Shown here: in pieces, positions 3,052 through 10,569 of the stretch
Position numbering within the stretch: position 1 is the first letter of the stretch
Layout of the letters: every line of letters starts with the position of its first letter
From: Thermoguttaceae bacterium
Lineage (GTDB): Bacteria > Planctomycetota > Planctomycetia > Pirellulales > Thermoguttaceae
NCBI GenBank assembly: GCA_017454585.1
Contig: JAFTCU010000058.1
Span: 1-10,669, forward strand
Length of the DNA: 10,669 nt
Reading direction: 5' to 3'
The notes under the pieces: model-generated
Told to the model about the DNA's origin: nothing
Seen by the model: the letters and a program-made list of their open reading frames with translations, nothing else
The model's database searches: none
Position numbers and translations under genes: made by a program

Positions 3052-3354
3052 TTAATCCACTCTCGGGTCCGTCAATTTTTCTTTGAATTTTTTCAGCTGC
3101 TGCTCCATTTTCTTCAGGGCTTCGTCCAATGATGCGAAAAGCTCGCCAGCCTGGGACTGAACGACCAGTTCTTTTTTCGGTTCGACTTTCAGAAGCAGCG
3201 TTAATGCGGGGTTATTACGATCCTCAAGGTCAACGACGACCTCCGCGGAAGCGATCCGGTCATAAAACCGAGTCAGTTTTTCGACCTTGGACTGAATCTT
3301 TTCTGTGTTAGGGCTGCTGATGCTGCCACGACGAACAGATAACGTAACTTGCAT
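3052..3354 (-). CDS. hpf: Ribosome hibernation promoting factor (short HPF/RaiA family)
   Basis: A 100-residue protein of the HPF/YfiA (RaiA) family, which binds the 30S decoding centre and helps store inactive ribosomes. It shows the expected beta-alpha-beta-beta-beta-alpha pattern: MQVTLSVRRGSIS, a helix with KIQSKVEKLTRFYDRI, strands with AEVVVDLEDR and ALTLLLKVEP, then the long basic helix ASLDEALKKMEQQLKKFKEK. It lacks the C-terminal domain of long HPF, so it is the short type. I place the start at the ATG at 3354 because AAGGA lies 8 bases upstream; the in-frame GTG at 3360 would leave only 2 bases. It is the first gene of the cluster, 97 bases before ptsN, in the same order as downstream of rpoN in proteobacteria, though no rpoN is present here. 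Confidence 0.9.
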   Translation of the reverse strand: MQVTLSVRRGSISSPNTEKIQSKVEKLTRFYDRIASAEVVVDLEDRNNPALTLLLKVEPKKELVVQSQAGELFASLDEALKKMEQQLKKFKEKLTDPRVD

Positions 3355-3460
3355 TTTCACATTCCTTTCCCGCAGTGACCGAAGTCTCCGCGCTCAAGAT
3401 TTTACCCAGCTACCTTCTTAACATCGAGGATGTTATGAGGGAATTCCGCAATATATCTTT

Positions 3461-3790: not shown

Positions 3791-4417
3791 TCACGGCAGC
3801 ACACGGAAAATTCGGCCTAAAATATACAGAACGTCCACTCCAATCAGCGCGAACGTGGCGATTTTCCACACATTCGGCTGCGCTGCTGATTCTTCTTCGG
3901 AAGTGGCTTCCTCAAGTACCGGTGCAGCAGAAACAGAATTCACCGGGATCTCGTCAAAAATTTCCTCTTCTTCCTCAACTGGCTGAGATTTCGTTTGAGG
4001 AAGTGGAATCGACGACTCATCATTTGCGTCGATGAATTTGTATAAATCACACAGTTTGGCGCGTAGTTCAGGGGCGAGATCGAGTTTTTGGGTCAATGCC
4101 CGCGACAAAATCTGATGACAACCGGCGATCTCACCCAGCATAATATCCGAATGAATACAGAATTTCTCGAAATCCGGCGTAAGTACCGGGTCCATCGAGT
4201 TGTCCAGGTACTCTGCGGCCGAATTGGCATTCCCCTTCGGAGTACCGTCCAGAAGTTCCGGGGCCGGGAGTTTCTGCTGCCCCATGATGCCTTCGATTTG
4301 GGTCTTCAGCGCTTTCGCCAGTTCGCTTTCTTCCACTTTCTGAGCCACAAGCGCAGCGTCTTCTTCAGAAAGATTGTTGTTGATCCAGTTTAACAGCGTT
4401 CTAAGTGTGAGCCGCAT
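3791..4417 (-). CDS. Conserved planctomycete-type hypothetical protein with C-terminal membrane anchor
   Basis: A 208-residue protein starting MRLTLRTLLNWINNNLSEED. I chose the ATG at 4417 because the open frame upstream of it (to 4522) looks non-coding, while MRLTLRTLL is the start I recall for this family. An AAGG lies about 11 bases upstream. Residues about 8-45 and 72-110 look like two diverged copies of one helical motif (LLNWINNNLSEED... and AEYLDNSMDP...). This resembles the layout of zinc-finger anti-sigma domains (xxYLDxxL followed by a helix), but without a clear His-x3-Cys-x2-Cys metal site; a C-H pair occurs in AGCHQIL. An acidic linker (EEEEEIFDEI) follows, then one hydrophobic segment near the C-terminus (WKIATFALIGVDVLYILG) with a short basic tail. 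The anchor suggests a mostly cytoplasmic protein held in the membrane. Function is unknown. It lies 141 bases downstream of the htrA gene on the same strand. Confidence 0.82.
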   Translation of the reverse strand: MRLTLRTLLNWINNNLSEEDAALVAQKVEESELAKALKTQIEGIMGQQKLPAPELLDGTPKGNANSAAEYLDNSMDPVLTPDFEKFCIHSDIMLGEIAGCHQILSRALTQKLDLAPELRAKLCDLYKFIDANDESSIPLPQTKSQPVEEEEEIFDEIPVNSVSAAPVLEEATSEEESAAQPNVWKIATFALIGVDVLYILGRIFRVLP

Positions 4418-4520
4418 AACGGTTTGCCTTTTGTTCGGTGCCCGAAAAAACAAAACAGTACTTTTGAGGAAAAAATCAATCCTCATTAGTATTAGTGCCT
4501 TTTCATAGCGGCTTCCGTAC

Positions 4521-4555
4521 AAAAAAATAAAAAATTTCCAGGGAAAACAGGAAAT
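4521..4555 (-). terminator. Weak intrinsic terminator after htrA
   Basis: On the minus strand, just after the htrA stop, ATTTCC (4555-4550) can pair with GGAAAT (4539-4534) around a 10-base loop. A T-rich run (TTTTTATTTTTTT-like, down to 4521) follows. The stem is only 6 bp and AT-rich, so termination may be partial and the next gene could be reached by read-through. Confidence 0.45.
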
Positions 4556-4558
4556 CTT

Positions 4559-5944
4559 TTATTTTCCAGACAGATTATTAATGTCGATCCGTGTGAAGGA
4601 AGCATTTTGCTCTCCAGTTGGGCGGCGAAGGATGACCAGATCCAACGTGGACTCAGGCGAGATGTTTTCCAGAATCTCGGCCAGGTGCGCTGGCGATTCC
4701 GGACGTTCGTTATTGACCCGCGCCAGAATATCACCCGATCGGGGTGCGTGTTTCAAATGTTTAAATCGGGAAGCATCCACTTCTGTGAGCAAGACTCCGC
4801 GAGGGAAACGCAAATGGAAGTCCTCGATATCCTTAGGCGTCAGTTCCTTGACCTTCATGTGGAGCCGGTTGCTGACGATCTGCTCTATGTTTCTTGGCGC
4901 ACGTTCCTCAAGCTGGAAGGAAACTTCTTTTACCGATTCCGGCTCATTTTCACGGAAGACCAACAGTTTAACTTCAGAACCGGTTTGAAGTGAGAGAAGC
5001 GTCTGGTAATAATCCACAGCAGTAAACGTTTCTGTCCCGTTAATTTTCTGAATAAGGTCCCCTTCCTGAAGCCCCCATTTTTGCGCAAACTCAGGGGTCA
5101 AATTTCCGATTCGAGTCCGGTGCGGGTCGCTCTTCCGTGAAGCAGTGACGGTCAGAGGGAGTTCCCATCGTTTCGATGCCGCACGGTGGAGCATTTCCGG
5201 AAAGCGGCAGCAAATCGTTTCAAGCGAGATCCCAAACGCAATACCGTCTGAGTCACCGCGTTTTGAGACGGTCATTCCCATGACTTTTCCAAAGAGGTTG
5301 AACCACGGTCCTCCCGAACTGCCGGGATTGATGGCCGCGTCGGTCTGAAGAAGTCCCTTGAGTGTCAGCCCCGGGATATCCGTCAAATTACTGATGCGGT
5401 CTGTCCCGCTGACGATCCCGTAGGTCAGGGAGAATTTCAGAGCGTGCGGACAGCCGATCAGCACGACCGTATCACCGATGGAAACCTCTGGGACCGGTTC
5501 GATCTGAACGGCCGAAAGCGGTTCTTCAGGCTCGATCTTCAGAAGGGCCAGATCCTCTTCCGCGATGATGTCGATGACTTCCGCCGGGTATCGTCGGCCG
5601 CTGATCAGTTCCACCTCAGGGAGAATGGTACGATTGACGGCGTGTGCGTTCGTCACAATGTAACCGTCTGGATGAAGGATGAAACCTGTTCCGACGGTGT
5701 GCTCTTCTTTGGTTCCATTGGGGGGATTGAAGAACTCGTTGGGAGACTTCAGTGTTGGATTGACATTGATGCCTGTAACATAAACCACCTTTGGGGCTTC
5801 CTCACGATAAAGCTTCGCAAGGATGGAATCTCCAGACGGCACGGGGGTGAGTATCTGGTATGGAGTAACATCCTGAGCCGTTCCGGAGAATGGGGCCAGG
5901 ACGAATACAAACAGAAAGATGGAAGCAAAGCGAATGTGATTCAT
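4559..5944 (-). CDS. htrA: Secreted HtrA/Deg-family trypsin-like serine protease with PDZ domains
   Basis: A 461-residue envelope protease/chaperone of the S1C family that degrades misfolded exported proteins. A signal peptide is seen (MNHIRFASIFLFVFVLAPFS, cleavage probably after GTA at residue 23). The protease domain carries the full triad: His101 in TNAHAV, Asp131 in EEDLALLKI and Ser210 in INPGSSGGPWF. Residues about 262-350 (GNLTPEFAQKWGLQEGDLI...) form a PDZ domain. Residues about 365-455 (GVLLTEVDASRFKHL...APRSGDILARVN) look like a second, diverged PDZ. The ATG at 5944 has AAAGGA 5 bases upstream. A good promoter sits just before it, so it is the first gene of its unit. The active-site loop reads GSSGG rather than the more common GNSGG, a conservative change. 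Whether it is DegP-, DegQ- or DegS-like cannot be decided here. Confidence 0.93.
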   Translation of the reverse strand: MNHIRFASIFLFVFVLAPFSGTAQDVTPYQILTPVPSGDSILAKLYREEAPKVVYVTGINVNPTLKSPNEFFNPPNGTKEEHTVGTGFILHPDGYIVTNAHAVNRTILPEVELISGRRYPAEVIDIIAEEDLALLKIEPEEPLSAVQIEPVPEVSIGDTVVLIGCPHALKFSLTYGIVSGTDRISNLTDIPGLTLKGLLQTDAAINPGSSGGPWFNLFGKVMGMTVSKRGDSDGIAFGISLETICCRFPEMLHRAASKRWELPLTVTASRKSDPHRTRIGNLTPEFAQKWGLQEGDLIQKINGTETFTAVDYYQTLLSLQTGSEVKLLVFRENEPESVKEVSFQLEERAPRNIEQIVSNRLHMKVKELTPKDIEDFHLRFPRGVLLTEVDASRFKHLKHAPRSGDILARVNNERPESPAHLAEILENISPESTLDLVILRRPTGEQNASFTRIDINNLSGK

Positions 5945-6296: not shown

Positions 6297-6551
6297 GGTC
6301 GATAAAACCGTGACCGGGTGGTGATGTAACGACTGTAACGATTATTTCCTCAAGAAGTGCAGGGCAGACTCCGATATAATTTGTGTTTTCGGAGAGGGGT
6401 TTTCAAACCCTACCTTCAACGGGCCTTTTGACTGAAGTTGGCGGCATAACAGGATGGCTGCCGGTCAAAAGCGCAATTTCCCTTGAGACCTCGCCTTATT
6501 GTGTCTGGCGTTGGTTCGAGGGAGCAAAATTACCATTTAGGGAGAAATAGA
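6297..6551 (+). promoter_or_regulatory. Long structured 5' leader with three hairpins
   Basis: About 255 nt separate the predicted start from the ATG at 6552. Three local folds are visible. (1) ctccga (6369-6374) pairs with tcggag (6389-6394). (2) cttttgac (6425-6432) pairs with gtcaaaag (6464-6471), enclosing cggca (6442-6446) with tgccg (6459-6463). (3) tcccttgagacc (6479-6490, one bulged G) pairs with ggttcgaggga (6513-6523), enclosing cgcc (6492-6495) with ggcg (6507-6510). The third hairpin ends 16 bases before the GGGAG ribosome binding site (6540-6544). A direct repeat tgtaacga occurs at 6325-6332 and 6334-6341. I do not recognise a known riboswitch, 6S RNA, tmRNA or SRP RNA. It could be a cis-regulatory leader or a separate small RNA. 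Confidence 0.45.
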
Positions 6552-7646
6552 ATGAAAGCTAAATCAGTTTTTTCCGCCCTCTTGCTGATGGGAGCCATGT
6601 TCATTGCGGCTCCGTCCTTCGCTCAGAATTGTGCGCCTGCTCAAGAGGCATCCTGCGGATGCAATAATCAGTGCACTCCGTGCGTTGTTGTTCGTAAGTG
6701 CGACGTTTTCAGCGGTCTCCGCTGCCGCCCCGTTTGTGATCCGTGCACCCCGTGCACCCCGTGCAAACCCGTTTGCAAGCCTGTTTGCAAGCCCGCTTGC
6801 CAGCCGTGCATCCCGTGCAAACCTGTTTGCGCTCCTTGCAAGCCCGTTTGCGCTCCTTGCAAGCCTGTTTGCGCTCCTTGCAAGCCCGTTTGCGACCCGT
6901 GCAAACCCGTCTGCGTTCCTTGCAAACCCGTCTGCAAGCCCGTTTGCGTTCCGTGCTGCAAGAAATTTGTCGTGAAGAAAGAATGCTGCACGCCTTGCGC
7001 CCCGGCTTGTGATCCGGCTCCGGCCTGCACGCCTTGCGCTCCCGTTTGCTCTCCGTGCGCTCCGGCTTGCACTCCTTGCAGCCCCTGCACCCCGTGCTGC
7101 GCTCCGTGCCGTCCGCTGATGTCCCTGTTCAGCCAGGTTCGCTGCGACATTTCCATCGCGGCTTGCAATGCCCGCGCCGGTTTGGCCAATATCGGTTTCG
7201 GTCTCCAGACGTTCCGTTGCAGCCTTGCCGCTAACATCGCCCAGTGCAAAGCGGAAGCCGACCTGAAAGAAGCCTGCCGTGTTGCTGAAAGAAGCGAGAA
7301 GTGCGGCGAACTGGAAGTCTGCGTCCCGAACCGGATTCGTCCCGGTGCGACGGTGAAAGGCATCTTCCGTACGCTGTTCGGCGGCCCGGTCCCCTGCGCA
7401 TGCGGTTGCGAAGCTGCCCCGGCTTGCGGTTGCGAAGTTGCTGAACCGGCCTGCGCTGCCCCGGCTCCGGCTGAAGAGAAAAAAGTTTCCGAAAAAGTCG
7501 AACCCACCCCGGCTCCGGCTGTGACGGAAGAAAAGGCTGAAATCGAAGAATCCGATGACGCTGAAGAAAGCCTCATCCCGGAAGCTGATCCGGCCGCGGT
7601 CTCCAAGAACTTCTACAATCCGAGCAACAGCATCGTCCTTCGCTAA
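6552..7646 (+). CDS. Secreted cysteine/proline-rich repeat protein, candidate envelope structural protein
   Basis: A 364-residue exported protein. The ATG at 6552 is chosen because GGGAG lies 7 bases upstream and it opens a classic signal peptide (MKAKSVFSALLLMGAMFIAA, cleavage after SFA at residue 24). The open frame extends upstream but crosses a hairpin, so I leave that out. Layout: residues 27-186 are a low-complexity domain of CxPC and CKPVCAP units holding 44 Cys by my count; residues about 187-278 are a non-repetitive, partly helical segment with spaced Cys (SLFSQVRCDISIAACNARAG...); residues 281-301 add CACGC/CGC clusters; residues about 302-364 are an Ala/Pro/Glu-rich acidic tail. 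Total about 57 Cys. Such a protein could be cross-linked by disulfides in the envelope. Cys/Pro-rich protein walls have been reported for planctomycetes, but metal binding is an alternative. No named family is recognised. It is monocistronic, with a strong terminator after it. Confidence 0.88.
   Translation: MKAKSVFSALLLMGAMFIAAPSFAQNCAPAQEASCGCNNQCTPCVVVRKCDVFSGLRCRPVCDPCTPCTPCKPVCKPVCKPACQPCIPCKPVCAPCKPVCAPCKPVCAPCKPVCDPCKPVCVPCKPVCKPVCVPCCKKFVVKKECCTPCAPACDPAPACTPCAPVCSPCAPACTPCSPCTPCCAPCRPLMSLFSQVRCDISIAACNARAGLANIGFGLQTFRCSLAANIAQCKAEADLKEACRVAERSEKCGELEVCVPNRIRPGATVKGIFRTLFGGPVPCACGCEAAPACGCEVAEPACAAPAPAEEKKVSEKVEPTPAPAVTEEKAEIEESDDAEESLIPEADPAAVSKNFYNPSNSIVLR
6816..6956 (+). repeat. 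Tandem 21-bp coding repeat (CKPVCAP units)
   Basis: Five 21-bp units start at 6816, 6837, 6858, 6879 and 6900, and a 36-bp variant follows at 6921-6956. The core unit is tgcaarccygtttgcgctcct. Units 1-3 encode identical CKPVCAP while differing only at third codon positions; later units change Ala to Asp or Val. Shorter 4- and 3-residue variants (CKPV, CTP) flank the array on both sides. Confidence 0.85.
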
Positions 7647-7676
7647 GATTCAGAAGTTGATTTGAATCAATCCCTG

Positions 7677-7703
7677 CCCGGTACATTTTGTACCGGGTTT
7701 TTT
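7677..7703 (+). terminator. Strong intrinsic terminator after the Cys-rich gene
   Basis: cccggtaca (7677-7685) and tgtaccggg (7689-7697) form a 9-bp GC-rich stem with a 3-base loop, followed by six T and more T-rich sequence. It lies 30 bases after the stop codon and should insulate guaB from this gene. Confidence 0.9.
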
Positions 7704-7898: not shown

Positions 7899-9362
7899 AT
7901 GGAAAACAAAATTCATTATCGCGGAATCACGTTTGACGATGTTCTTCTCGAACCGCGCTACAGTGAGCTGGTCCCTTCCGAGGTGGATATTACCACGAAT
8001 CTGACCAAACGTATTCAGTTGAATATTCCTATTCTCAGTTCTCCAATGGATACGGTGACGGAAAGCGCTATGGCGATCGCTCTCGCCCAGGAAGGCGGTC
8101 TGGGAATCATCCACAAAAATCTTTCCATTCATGATCAGGTCACGGAAGTTATCAAGGTCAAACGTACCGCGAACGGGATCATCAACAATCCCGCGACACT
8201 CCGGCCGGACGCTACGGTCGCCGATGCCCGAAAGAAAATGGAAACCAACCGTGTCTCAGGTATCCCGGTCACTCTCGAAAACGGTCATCTGGAAGGGATC
8301 ATCACCCGCCGGGACCTGCGTTTTTTGGAGGATTCCACAGTCGCCGTTTCGGAAGTTATGACGAAAAAAAATCTTATAACGGCTACGGGAAATGTAACGC
8401 TTGGGGAAGCTGAGAAAATTTTAATGGAAAAAAAGGTGGAGAAACTGCTCCTGGTTGACGATAATTATATATTGACGGGACTAATTACGATCAAAGACAT
8501 CGATATGCAGCGCAAATACCCGCTGGCTTGCAAAGACAGTCAGGGACGTCTGCGGGTCGGGGCGGCCGTCGGGGTTCACGATTACGAACGAATCGGAACT
8601 CTGGTCGAAACCGGCGTCGATATTTTGGTCCTTGACAGTGCCCACGGCCATTCCAAAAACGTATTGGAAACGGTTCGACGCATCAAAAAAGATTGGGACA
8701 TTGATGTAATCGTGGGTAACATCGCAACGGCAGAAGCGGCCAAAGATTTGGTGGCGGCCGGCGCGGACGCTGTGAAGGTCGGAATTGGTCCAGGCTCGAT
8801 TTGCACGACGCGTGTCGTATCGGGTGTCGGTGTTCCTCAAATCTCGGCGATTTTGAATGTTGCGCAGGCGATTGAAGGAAGCGGCACCACGATCATCGCT
8901 GACGGCGGCATCCGCTATTCGGGAGACATCACGAAAGCGCTGGCGGCCGGAGCGCACGTGGTTATGCTTGGTGGGCTTCTCGCTGGATTGGAAGAGAGCC
9001 CTGGAAGCAAAGTGTTTTATCAGGGCCGTCAGTTCAAGGTCTATCGTGGAATGGGATCGCTCGGCGCGATGGTTCGTGGTTCGAGTGAACGTTACCGCCA
9101 GTCGAAGGCCGGGCCGGACAAACTGGTCCCGGAAGGTGTCGAAGGGCGTGTTCCTTACCGCGGAGAACTTGGGCCATTCGTTTACCAGCTCGTAGGGGGG
9201 CTTCGCGCTGGTATGGGTTATTGTGGAACAAGAAATATTGAAGAATTGCGCAGGGATGCCCAGTTCGTTCAAATTTCTCCGGCAACAGTTCGGGAGAATC
9301 ACCCTCATGACATCAAAATTACGCAGGAAGCTCCAAACTACAATTCAGAGGATAACGGTTAA
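7899..9362 (+). CDS. guaB: Inosine-5'-monophosphate dehydrogenase
   Basis: Cytoplasmic enzyme that oxidises IMP to XMP with NAD+, the committed step of GMP synthesis. The 487 residues match the usual length. Seen in order: the barrel start [19 protein letters not shown]; the substrate region [10 protein letters not shown]; a tandem CBS pair at residues about 96-205 ([22 protein letters not shown]...[21 protein letters not shown]); VLDSAHGHS; the catalytic loop [11 protein letters not shown] with Cys302; [28 protein letters not shown]; and the flap Arg398-Tyr399 in GSSERYRQ. The ATG at 7899 has AAGGAG 8 bases upstream; the longer open frame from 7854 has none. All catalytic residues are intact and the CBS module is full length, so nucleotide-dependent allostery is possible. 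A secreted-protein gene follows 7 bases after the stop. Confidence 0.97.
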
Positions 9363-9368
9363 TCCTCT
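9347..9368 (+). promoter_or_regulatory. Hairpin across the guaB stop, next to the following start codon
   Basis: agaggat (9347-9353) pairs perfectly with atcctct (9362-9368) around an 8-base loop that contains most of the guaB stop codon. The ATG of the next gene is at 9370. The only GAGG near that start is inside the stem, so a ribosome finishing guaB could open the site. This is a reading of the sequence, not a known element. Confidence 0.4.
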
Positions 9369-9369
9369 C

Positions 9370-10569
9370 ATGCTGTGCGGCAGACAGGAAGTTTGCCGCC
9401 TTACGGCTCTTTTTGCCGCGGTTCTCGCCGCAGGTATTGCGGGCGCATCGGACAATTGGGCCCGCTCTGATGCCCAGAATGTCCCCACAAAGGGCAATGT
9501 GCCGCTCGTGCGCATTGACACCGCCGCGTCGGACACCGAAGATTCCAGGGTCGTTCAGGTCAGTTATGCTGATCCGGACTCTGTGATCTGTGAATCTGGC
9601 AATGGCCTGAAATGGGTCTCGGTAAACGCGGCTGATGCCTCCAAAAATCAAAAACAGGAACTGAAAAAAGAACCGCGTGTCACACCGATTCCGTCCGTGA
9701 TGCCGCGTTTCTCTCGCGTTCGTTTGACGGCTGGCGATGATTCAAACGACGAACTTGATATGGATTTGGACGGTCTGGACGGTTTGGGAGATCAGGATGA
9801 AATTTCTGTCAAGCCGGAAGATGACGGTCCCATGCAGTCTTTGGAACTCCCGGCGTTGAACGCTGAGACTGAAGAAGACGCTGAGCAGCCGCTGGTTGAC
9901 GAATCCGAAGCGCAAAATCCGGGAGCGATTGGAAACGAAAAGGAAAGCATGATGAAACAGGGGGGCCTGGATCTGAATGCGGACGCGCTGGATGAACAGA
10001 CCGTGGAACCTGCCAAAGAACAACTGCCGGCTCTGGAACAGCCTGGAAAACTGCCAGCGGCCAAAGACTCGATTTCGGAAACCTTCTCGACCAAGCAGGT
10101 TGACGATTCGGACTTTGATATGCCGTGTCAGAGCAGCGAGCCTATGCACCGTATCACGGAAATCACGAACGATATTGAACTTCACGACAATCGTATCGTT
10201 CCGAAATCCTGCCCGCTTTCTCCAGAAGGCGAGAAATTCCCGGCGCGTGAGTTTGCGGGAACCCACTTCACCTGGACCGCGTCGAACCTGTGCCACAATC
10301 CGCTCTACTTCGAGCAGCCTGGTCTGGAACGTTATGGTCACACGATCGGCCCGCTTCAGCCGGTTCTTTCGGGCGCGCAATTCCTCGTGACGATTCCGGC
10401 CCTTCCGATGCTGATGGCCATCGACCCGCCGAACGAGTGCGAGTATGCGCTGGGTTTCTACCGCCCGGGAAGCTGCGCCCCGCGTAAATGGAGTCCGATT
10501 CCGTACTCGACCCGCGGCGCGATTGCGACCGGTGGTGTAGCGACCGCCCTGGTGTTCCTGATCCCGTAA
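9370..10569 (+). CDS. Secreted acidic protein with conserved Cys-containing C-terminal domain, function unknown
   Basis: A 399-residue protein if started at the ATG at 9370, 7 bases after the guaB stop. Residues 1-26 form a signal peptide (hydrophobic core LTALFAAVLAAGIAG, likely cleavage after AGA). A longer start at 9307 has GGGAG 10 bases upstream, but its added codons (tta, ata, agg, aca) differ from the rest of the gene and give an unusually long n-region, so I prefer 9370. Residues about 122-251 are acidic, low-complexity and probably disordered (DELDMDLDGLDGLGDQDEI). Residues about 253-399 look like a folded domain with five Cys, including LCHNPLYFEQPGLERYGH, NECEYALGFYRPGSCAP and a hydrophobic end GAIATGGVATALVFLIP. 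I recall this ending from uncharacterised planctomycete proteins, but have no function for it. It may be anchored or embedded in the envelope. Co-transcription with guaB is likely from the spacing. Confidence 0.85.
   Translation: MLCGRQEVCRLTALFAAVLAAGIAGASDNWARSDAQNVPTKGNVPLVRIDTAASDTEDSRVVQVSYADPDSVICESGNGLKWVSVNAADASKNQKQELKKEPRVTPIPSVMPRFSRVRLTAGDDSNDELDMDLDGLDGLGDQDEISVKPEDDGPMQSLELPALNAETEEDAEQPLVDESEAQNPGAIGNEKESMMKQGGLDLNADALDEQTVEPAKEQLPALEQPGKLPAAKDSISETFSTKQVDDSDFDMPCQSSEPMHRITEITNDIELHDNRIVPKSCPLSPEGEKFPAREFAGTHFTWTASNLCHNPLYFEQPGLERYGHTIGPLQPVLSGAQFLVTIPALPMLMAIDPPNECEYALGFYRPGSCAPRKWSPIPYSTRGAIATGGVATALVFLIP

Follow-up and report, generated by a model that had tools for sequence, protein, structure and literature searches.

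A clade-restricted, exported cysteine- and proline-rich protein as a candidate structural envelope component in Thermoguttaceae

The window, by which we mean the whole stretch of 10,669 nucleotides analysed here, harbors on its forward strand the gene of an exported Cys/Pro-rich protein of 364 amino acids (P0001), divergent from the gene of an HtrA/Deg-type protease. Both genes, the signals around them and the segments of the protein are given below.

4559..5944, minus strand: HtrA/Deg-type protease with trypsin-like and PDZ domains (Pfam, NCBIfam), divergent, a conserved neighbour
6340..6392, plus strand: conserved upstream element GATTATTNNCTCAAG-N13-(A/T)CTCCGATAT-N6-TGTTT, in the intergenic region that separates the HtrA gene from the divergent Cys gene
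6539..6547, plus strand: Shine-Dalgarno sequence AGGGAGAAA, kept in all five aligned upstream regions
6552..7646, plus strand: Cys/Pro-rich exported protein P0001, whole gene with stop (translation of 364 amino acids)
6552..6623, plus strand: signal peptide, residues 1-24 (by eye; N-termini of relatives similar)
6624..6731, plus strand: N-terminal Cys segment with CD(V/L)FxGxR, residues 25-60
6732..6971, plus strand: CxPC/CKPVC repeat, residues 61-140, with 23 Cys and 21 Pro
6972..7109, plus strand: second Cys/Pro segment, residues 141-186, with 14 Cys
7110..7382, plus strand: conserved core, residues 187-277, with RPLxxLF, ANIxQxKAEA, ACR and RPGAxxKGIxRTLFG
7383..7571, plus strand: CGC motifs and acidic Pro/Ala-rich tail, residues 278-340
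7572..7643, plus strand: conserved C-terminus, residues 341-364, ending in N(P/A)SxSIV(L/R)(R/K)
7676..7698, plus strand: intrinsic terminator-like hairpin with a T run (hairpin scan)

Elsewhere in the window, genes for PTS enzyme I, HPr and an EIIA/PtsN-like protein stand in a row on the minus strand (326-2956), which looks like a regulatory PTS. A ribosome hibernation factor gene (3052-3360) belongs to the same row, and all of these are also found at the related loci L001 and L013. Between the hibernation factor and HtrA genes (3791-4522, minus strand) lies the gene of a 243-aa protein that has no Pfam match and is hydrophobic in a segment near its C-terminus; it is also present in L001, L013 and L043. 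Downstream of the IMPDH gene, an acidic, probably exported protein of no family is encoded on the plus strand (9223-10569; the listed ORF start overlaps IMPDH), as it is in L001. Rfam and tRNA scans of the window returned nothing.

P0001 contains 57 Cys, about one residue in six, and 52 Pro. The initial annotation had arrived by hand at about 57 Cys with 44 of them in residues 27-186, and the computed count agrees exactly, adding 36 Pro in that region and 12 Cys in residues 187-300. It had also described the protein as built of CxPC and CKPVCAP units; the former is borne out (19 occurrences), whereas the latter was a loose description, the commonest unit being CKPVC (9 occurrences) and exact CKPVCAP occurring 3 times. 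Cysteines in residues 61-140 are nearly always spaced by 3 or 4. The window, L001, L002, L013 and L016 together contain 117 ORFs that reach 150 aa; Cys makes up 11.6-16.5% of the five family members among them and 5.3% of the next-highest ORF. The acidic tail recognized earlier is real, with 18 D/E within residues 278-364.

The N-terminus, MKAKSVFSALLLMGAMFIAAPSFA followed by QN, was judged by eye to be a Sec signal peptide. Of the 12 proteins aligned, 9 show a similar one by eye and the remaining 3 records are without N-terminus, so that the peptide is retained in every aligned member whose N-terminus is present. The repeat differs in length among relatives, whereas the core and both ends are kept. 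The core motifs are imperfect, L055 deviating from RPL and from RPGA, and the N(P/A)SxSIV(L/R)(R/K) end is found in 11 of 12 members, the twelfth (L055) being cut by a contig end. As for the helical Cys domain proposed initially, AlphaFold2 run with seven sequences does predict helices beyond the signal peptide (192-247 and 269-276), although with low confidence (mean pLDDT 34), which makes this part of the description weak.

Selection on the gene could be estimated against three relatives. Pairwise dN/dS against L001 was 0.20 over 362 codons (0.285 for the core alone), which argues that the frame is translated and constrained; values of 0.24 against L002 and 0.18 against L013 were obtained at a dS of about 1.0 and 1.8, respectively, that is, near or at saturation. 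In the window and in L001, L002, L013 and L016, the HtrA gene lies next to the Cys gene, upstream of it and in the opposite orientation. In G049, the best HtrA homologue lies on another contig and none is found within 4.4 kb before the Cys gene, while the position of the Cys gene at a contig end leaves this adjacency unjudged in G050 and G053. At 13 HtrA loci elsewhere, 11 from non-carriers and 2 from carriers (G053 and G049), no exported Cys-repeat ORF adjoins the protease gene in a check that runs only to the contig ends, in some cases less than 1.5 kb away; two Cys-bearing ORFs flagged in L054 were not repetitive.

The upstream element was aligned at the same five loci, where it precedes the start codon by 212 bases in the window and by some 210 to 280 bases overall. 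A scan of 586,565 bases, in which some stretches overlap, gave mismatch-free copies of its first half, ATTATTNNCTCAAG, at these five loci and nowhere else, and the element is thus probably a promoter or operator of the HtrA/Cys gene pair. A search upstream of other Cys-rich genes did not find it. If it is the promoter, the Cys gene has a long leader RNA. Downstream of the gene, a similar hairpin is seen by eye at the same place in L001; terminator-like sites in the region number 4, against 3.1 expected by chance from shuffled sequence.

The initial annotation could name no family for the protein, and this holds: Pfam and NCBIfam scans gave no family match, and in particular neither OmcB/OmcA homology nor a metallothionein-type family match. 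Comparison with solved structures remained at chance level, with a best E of 0.042 for whole P0001 (an RNA polymerase II tail) and of 1.4 for its C-terminal part. Strong relatives were found in seven genomes of one family and as four database proteins, and nowhere else in the search. Searches of 5.8 billion proteins with P0001 and with P0005 returned the same four relatives, P0005 included, none with a Pfam domain, and a search with the G051 member gave two proteins, which by their own and their contigs' lengths fit the G051 and G050 genes. Two named carriers are Thermoguttaceae metagenome-assembled genomes (MAGs), from goat reticulum and water-deer rectum. The first Thermoguttaceae MAG matches all ten window genes sought, with identities of 97% for IMPDH, 93% for PtsI and 75% for the Cys protein. 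This synteny and the IMPDH identity bear out the planctomycete origin assumed in the initial annotation, and the window probably comes from a planctomycete of the rumen.

Within the family of that MAG, the Cys protein was matched in 6 of 119 genomes. In a draw of 396 genomes from the order, 10 matched at E 0.01 and seven at E 7.8e-10 or better; the weak matches in G102, G138 and G347 (E 0.006-0.009) were left out of the carrier count. The seventh carrier is G049, with its Cys gene at a contig end. The order search scored few candidates per genome (6 in most rows listed) and could miss distant members. As far as searched, then, the protein is confined to one Thermoguttaceae clade of the order Pirellulales, and, with a strong match in 7 of 396 order genomes, it is too narrowly distributed to belong to the core of the planctomycete wall. 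In open-licence literature on planctomycete walls, cysteine and disulfides, no description of this family appears in titles and abstract openings, and nothing on cysteine-rich proteins was found in that on Thermoguttaceae.

Codon weights were derived from 11 G001 genes for ribosomal proteins (L2 identified by search, the other ten recognized from sequence), and genes were scored with Cys and Pro codons left out. The Cys gene scores 0.828 in the window, 0.816 in L001 and 0.869 in L002 (with the G001 weights), against 0.675-0.794 for the ribosomal-protein genes left out singly (n = 11), 0.645-0.778 for 10 other L001 genes and 0.464-0.731 for 21 ORFs from two stretches, some of which are probably not genes. 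The high score is not caused by the repeat, since the post-repeat part alone gives 0.839. The YTV gene reaches 0.749 and a 165-aa Cys-rich gene 0.886. Such a bias, at or above that of ribosomal genes, supports abundance of the protein and is no proof of it, as the ribosomal and other-gene ranges overlap and the index therefore separates weakly.

The envelope context was considered in 13 family genomes, seven carriers and six others (G001, G002, G003, G007, G048-G051, G053-G055, G057 and G089), so that genome-level statements rest on relatives of the window's genome. The penicillin-binding transpeptidase domain (PF00905) was found in none of the 13, while the control matched in 10 of 14. All 13 have matches to the YTV wall-protein family (PF07639), as do 113 of 119 family genomes, including all seven carriers. 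In the six carriers inspected, YTV lies in separate ORFs with 57 to 101 Cys (101 in G001; that of G053 is broken by a stretch of N). Envelopes of Planctomyces have been published as Pro/Cys-rich and disulfide-stabilised, and wall preparations of Rhodopirellula and Gemmataceae contain Cys-rich YTV proteins according to PMC8567305, which also presents most Planctomycetales as devoid of peptidoglycan genes (for the Gemmata envelope context, see PMC5287468). Since peptidoglycan has been detected in Planctomycetia and anammox planctomycetes, as stated in PMC10632474, the absence of a single domain is no proof that the wall consists of protein alone.

The close relative G001 encodes other exported Cys-rich proteins besides its YTV ORF. 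A 165-aa protein of G001 (L018:4553-5050, minus strand) has 34 Cys and two PFNGFF units, and relatives of this PFNGFFxNLF protein were found in L063, L064, L065, L067, L069, L070 and L071. Matches to it occur in 9 of 119 genomes, which include 6 of the 7 carriers; the match in G052 shows no Cys-rich ORF. A marginal hit of the L063 member to PF03940 (male specific sperm protein; 21.6 bits for a cut-off of 21.2) was dismissed as low-complexity noise. Near the PFNGFF gene, a small lipoprotein-like ORF with W(N/T)PF was seen in G001, G048, G049 and G053. Met by chance in a background stretch, L074:14172-14840 (plus strand) encodes an exported protein of 222 aa that contains 44 Cys and KPCFKFNF-like repeat units, directly upstream of ORFs that resemble by eye ribosomal proteins S12 and S7. 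A 449-kb sample of G001, taken from two large contigs and not at random, yields two ORFs that pass a Cys filter, namely YTV and the KPCFKFNF protein, both exported and repetitive; in 400 kb of G089, which itself carries YTV, five ORFs pass, with no visible repeat or strongly hydrophobic N-terminus.

How the cysteines of such proteins are bonded is less straightforward than the disulfide-linked candidate of the initial annotation, which had also allowed for metal binding, would suggest. Searches of the same 13 genomes found no DsbB (its control matching in 6 of 14), VKOR (3 of 14), DSBA (8 of 14) or Thioredoxin_4 (9 of 14); several of the 13 are fragmented into many contigs and perhaps incomplete, although G089 is a single contig of 4.8 Mb. 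Of the 8 members having both ends, 5 contain an odd number of Cys, with one Cys of L016 possibly in or next to the signal peptide. Both observations count against simple disulfides; disulfides, if present, would be made otherwise or between chains, and metal-thiolate links are possible. The two named carriers come from gut sites, where oxygen is presumably scarce. With no Dsb or VKOR family found, the question arises how a gut bacterium cross-links, or keeps reduced, exported proteins with 50-100 Cys.

Several other readings of the locus have to be weighed. Tandem repeats are prone to yield long ORFs in several frames, and P0001 might accordingly be an untranslated low-complexity artefact; this is refuted by the dN/dS of 0.20 and by the Shine-Dalgarno sequence, upstream element, start, core and stop kept at five loci, which leave it a probability close to nil. 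On these grounds, to which the conserved C-terminal N(P/A)SxSIV adds, sequence conservation identifies the ORF as a real gene. That P0001 is a divergent member of the YTV wall family would fit its phylum, its export, its Cys content and the CKPV-type words that YTV proteins share. P0001, P0002, P0005 and the L013 and L016 proteins, however, have no PF07639 match at E up to 10, in a search whose filters drop most weak matches and which scores the G001 YTV protein (L057) at 261.5 bits over 13 stretches for a Pfam cut-off of 21 bits. With separate YTV ORFs in the six carriers, this largely contradicts membership, which we hold to be very improbable.

The remaining two readings grant that the protein is genuine and differ on what it does. 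Its cysteines could stay reduced in the gut and coordinate a metal (zinc, copper or iron), the protein serving as an exported sink or providing metal cross-links within the wall, a view in line with the four absent oxidative-folding families, the odd Cys numbers and the gut origin of two named relatives. The repeat, however, drifts in length and contains 21 Pro among 80 residues, and to our knowledge metallothioneins show no such proline richness; the eight other window proteins scanned also include no metal-handling family, so that we find a metal-thiolate protein rather unlikely. A surface adhesin, or a mucin- or host-binding protein whose Cys/Pro stalk presents the core, is suggested by the small clade, its two named members from ruminant gut sites and a stalk-like repeat of variable length. 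We rate it as quite unlikely, given that Pfam and NCBIfam reveal no binding domain and that a codon bias of ribosomal level fits a bulk component.

The structural reading is favoured by purifying selection combined with a changing repeat length and by the published Pro/Cys-rich Planctomyces envelopes. P0001 belongs to a real, clade-restricted, exported Cys/Pro-rich family without name, of the Pro/Cys-rich wall-protein kind and distinct from YTV. Its assignment as a wall component, proposed in the initial annotation, is a plausible prediction of location that now stands on better ground, strengthened by the codon bias, the lack of a transpeptidase domain in relatives and the Cys-rich companion proteins. 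We consider it rather likely that this Thermoguttaceae clade exports P0001 in large amounts as a structural protein of the envelope, with its cysteines providing the cross-links; location, linkage and abundance are predicted from sequence features. The protein would leave the cytoplasm through its conserved Sec signal peptide. The repeat may then form an extended flexible chain with a Cys every 3-4 residues, whose cysteines would link neighbouring chains, most likely by disulfides, into an insoluble layer; the core (RPLxxLF, KGIxRTLFG) and the conserved C-terminus might serve as docking sites, for contacts of the chain with itself or with partners. P0001 would act beside the YTV wall protein and not replace it.

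Planctomycete wall proteins are poorly defined beyond the YTV family, and P0001 represents a YTV-unrelated, strongly codon-adapted wall candidate in gut relatives with no penicillin-binding transpeptidase domain detected. Only tentatively, as an idea we would not expect to hold as a whole, we propose that Thermoguttaceae of the gut dispense with penicillin-binding transpeptidases and assemble their wall from unrelated Cys/Pro repeat proteins (P0001, PFNGFF, KPCFKFNF and YTV), cross-linked without Dsb/VKOR by an unknown oxidant or by metal-thiolate bridges.

Several known systems resemble P0001 to varying degrees. In vertebrates, keratin-associated and small proline-rich (cornifin) proteins use short Cys/Pro repeats that are cross-linked into insoluble layers; P0001 resembles them by composition only, its Pfam scan being without match. 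The chlamydial OmcB and OmcA are likewise Cys-rich envelope proteins, believed to give structure instead of peptidoglycan (PMC2811131), whereas P0001 has no family match. That source also lists DSBA-like proteins for chlamydiae, in contrast to the 13 family genomes in which DSBA was not found. Closer at hand, the PFNGFFxNLF proteins (L018 and relatives) are also exported and Cys/Pro-rich, and their GFFRNLF resembles GIFRTLF of the core, but they differ by a length of 165 aa, two PFNGFF units and no SIVLR end, and their homology to P0001 is tentative at best (E 0.07). The YTV wall proteins share with P0001 a planctomycete origin, export, an extreme Cys content and long irregular repeats, and have been reported in wall preparations (PMC8567305). 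P0001 differs from them in having no YTV unit by HMM and, instead, a CxPC/CKPVC repeat, a conserved core and an acidic tail, and the carrier genomes encode YTV proteins by a separate gene. With the Pro/Cys-rich envelope proteins of planctomycetes in general, P0001 shares its richness in both residues, 57 Cys and 52 Pro of 364.
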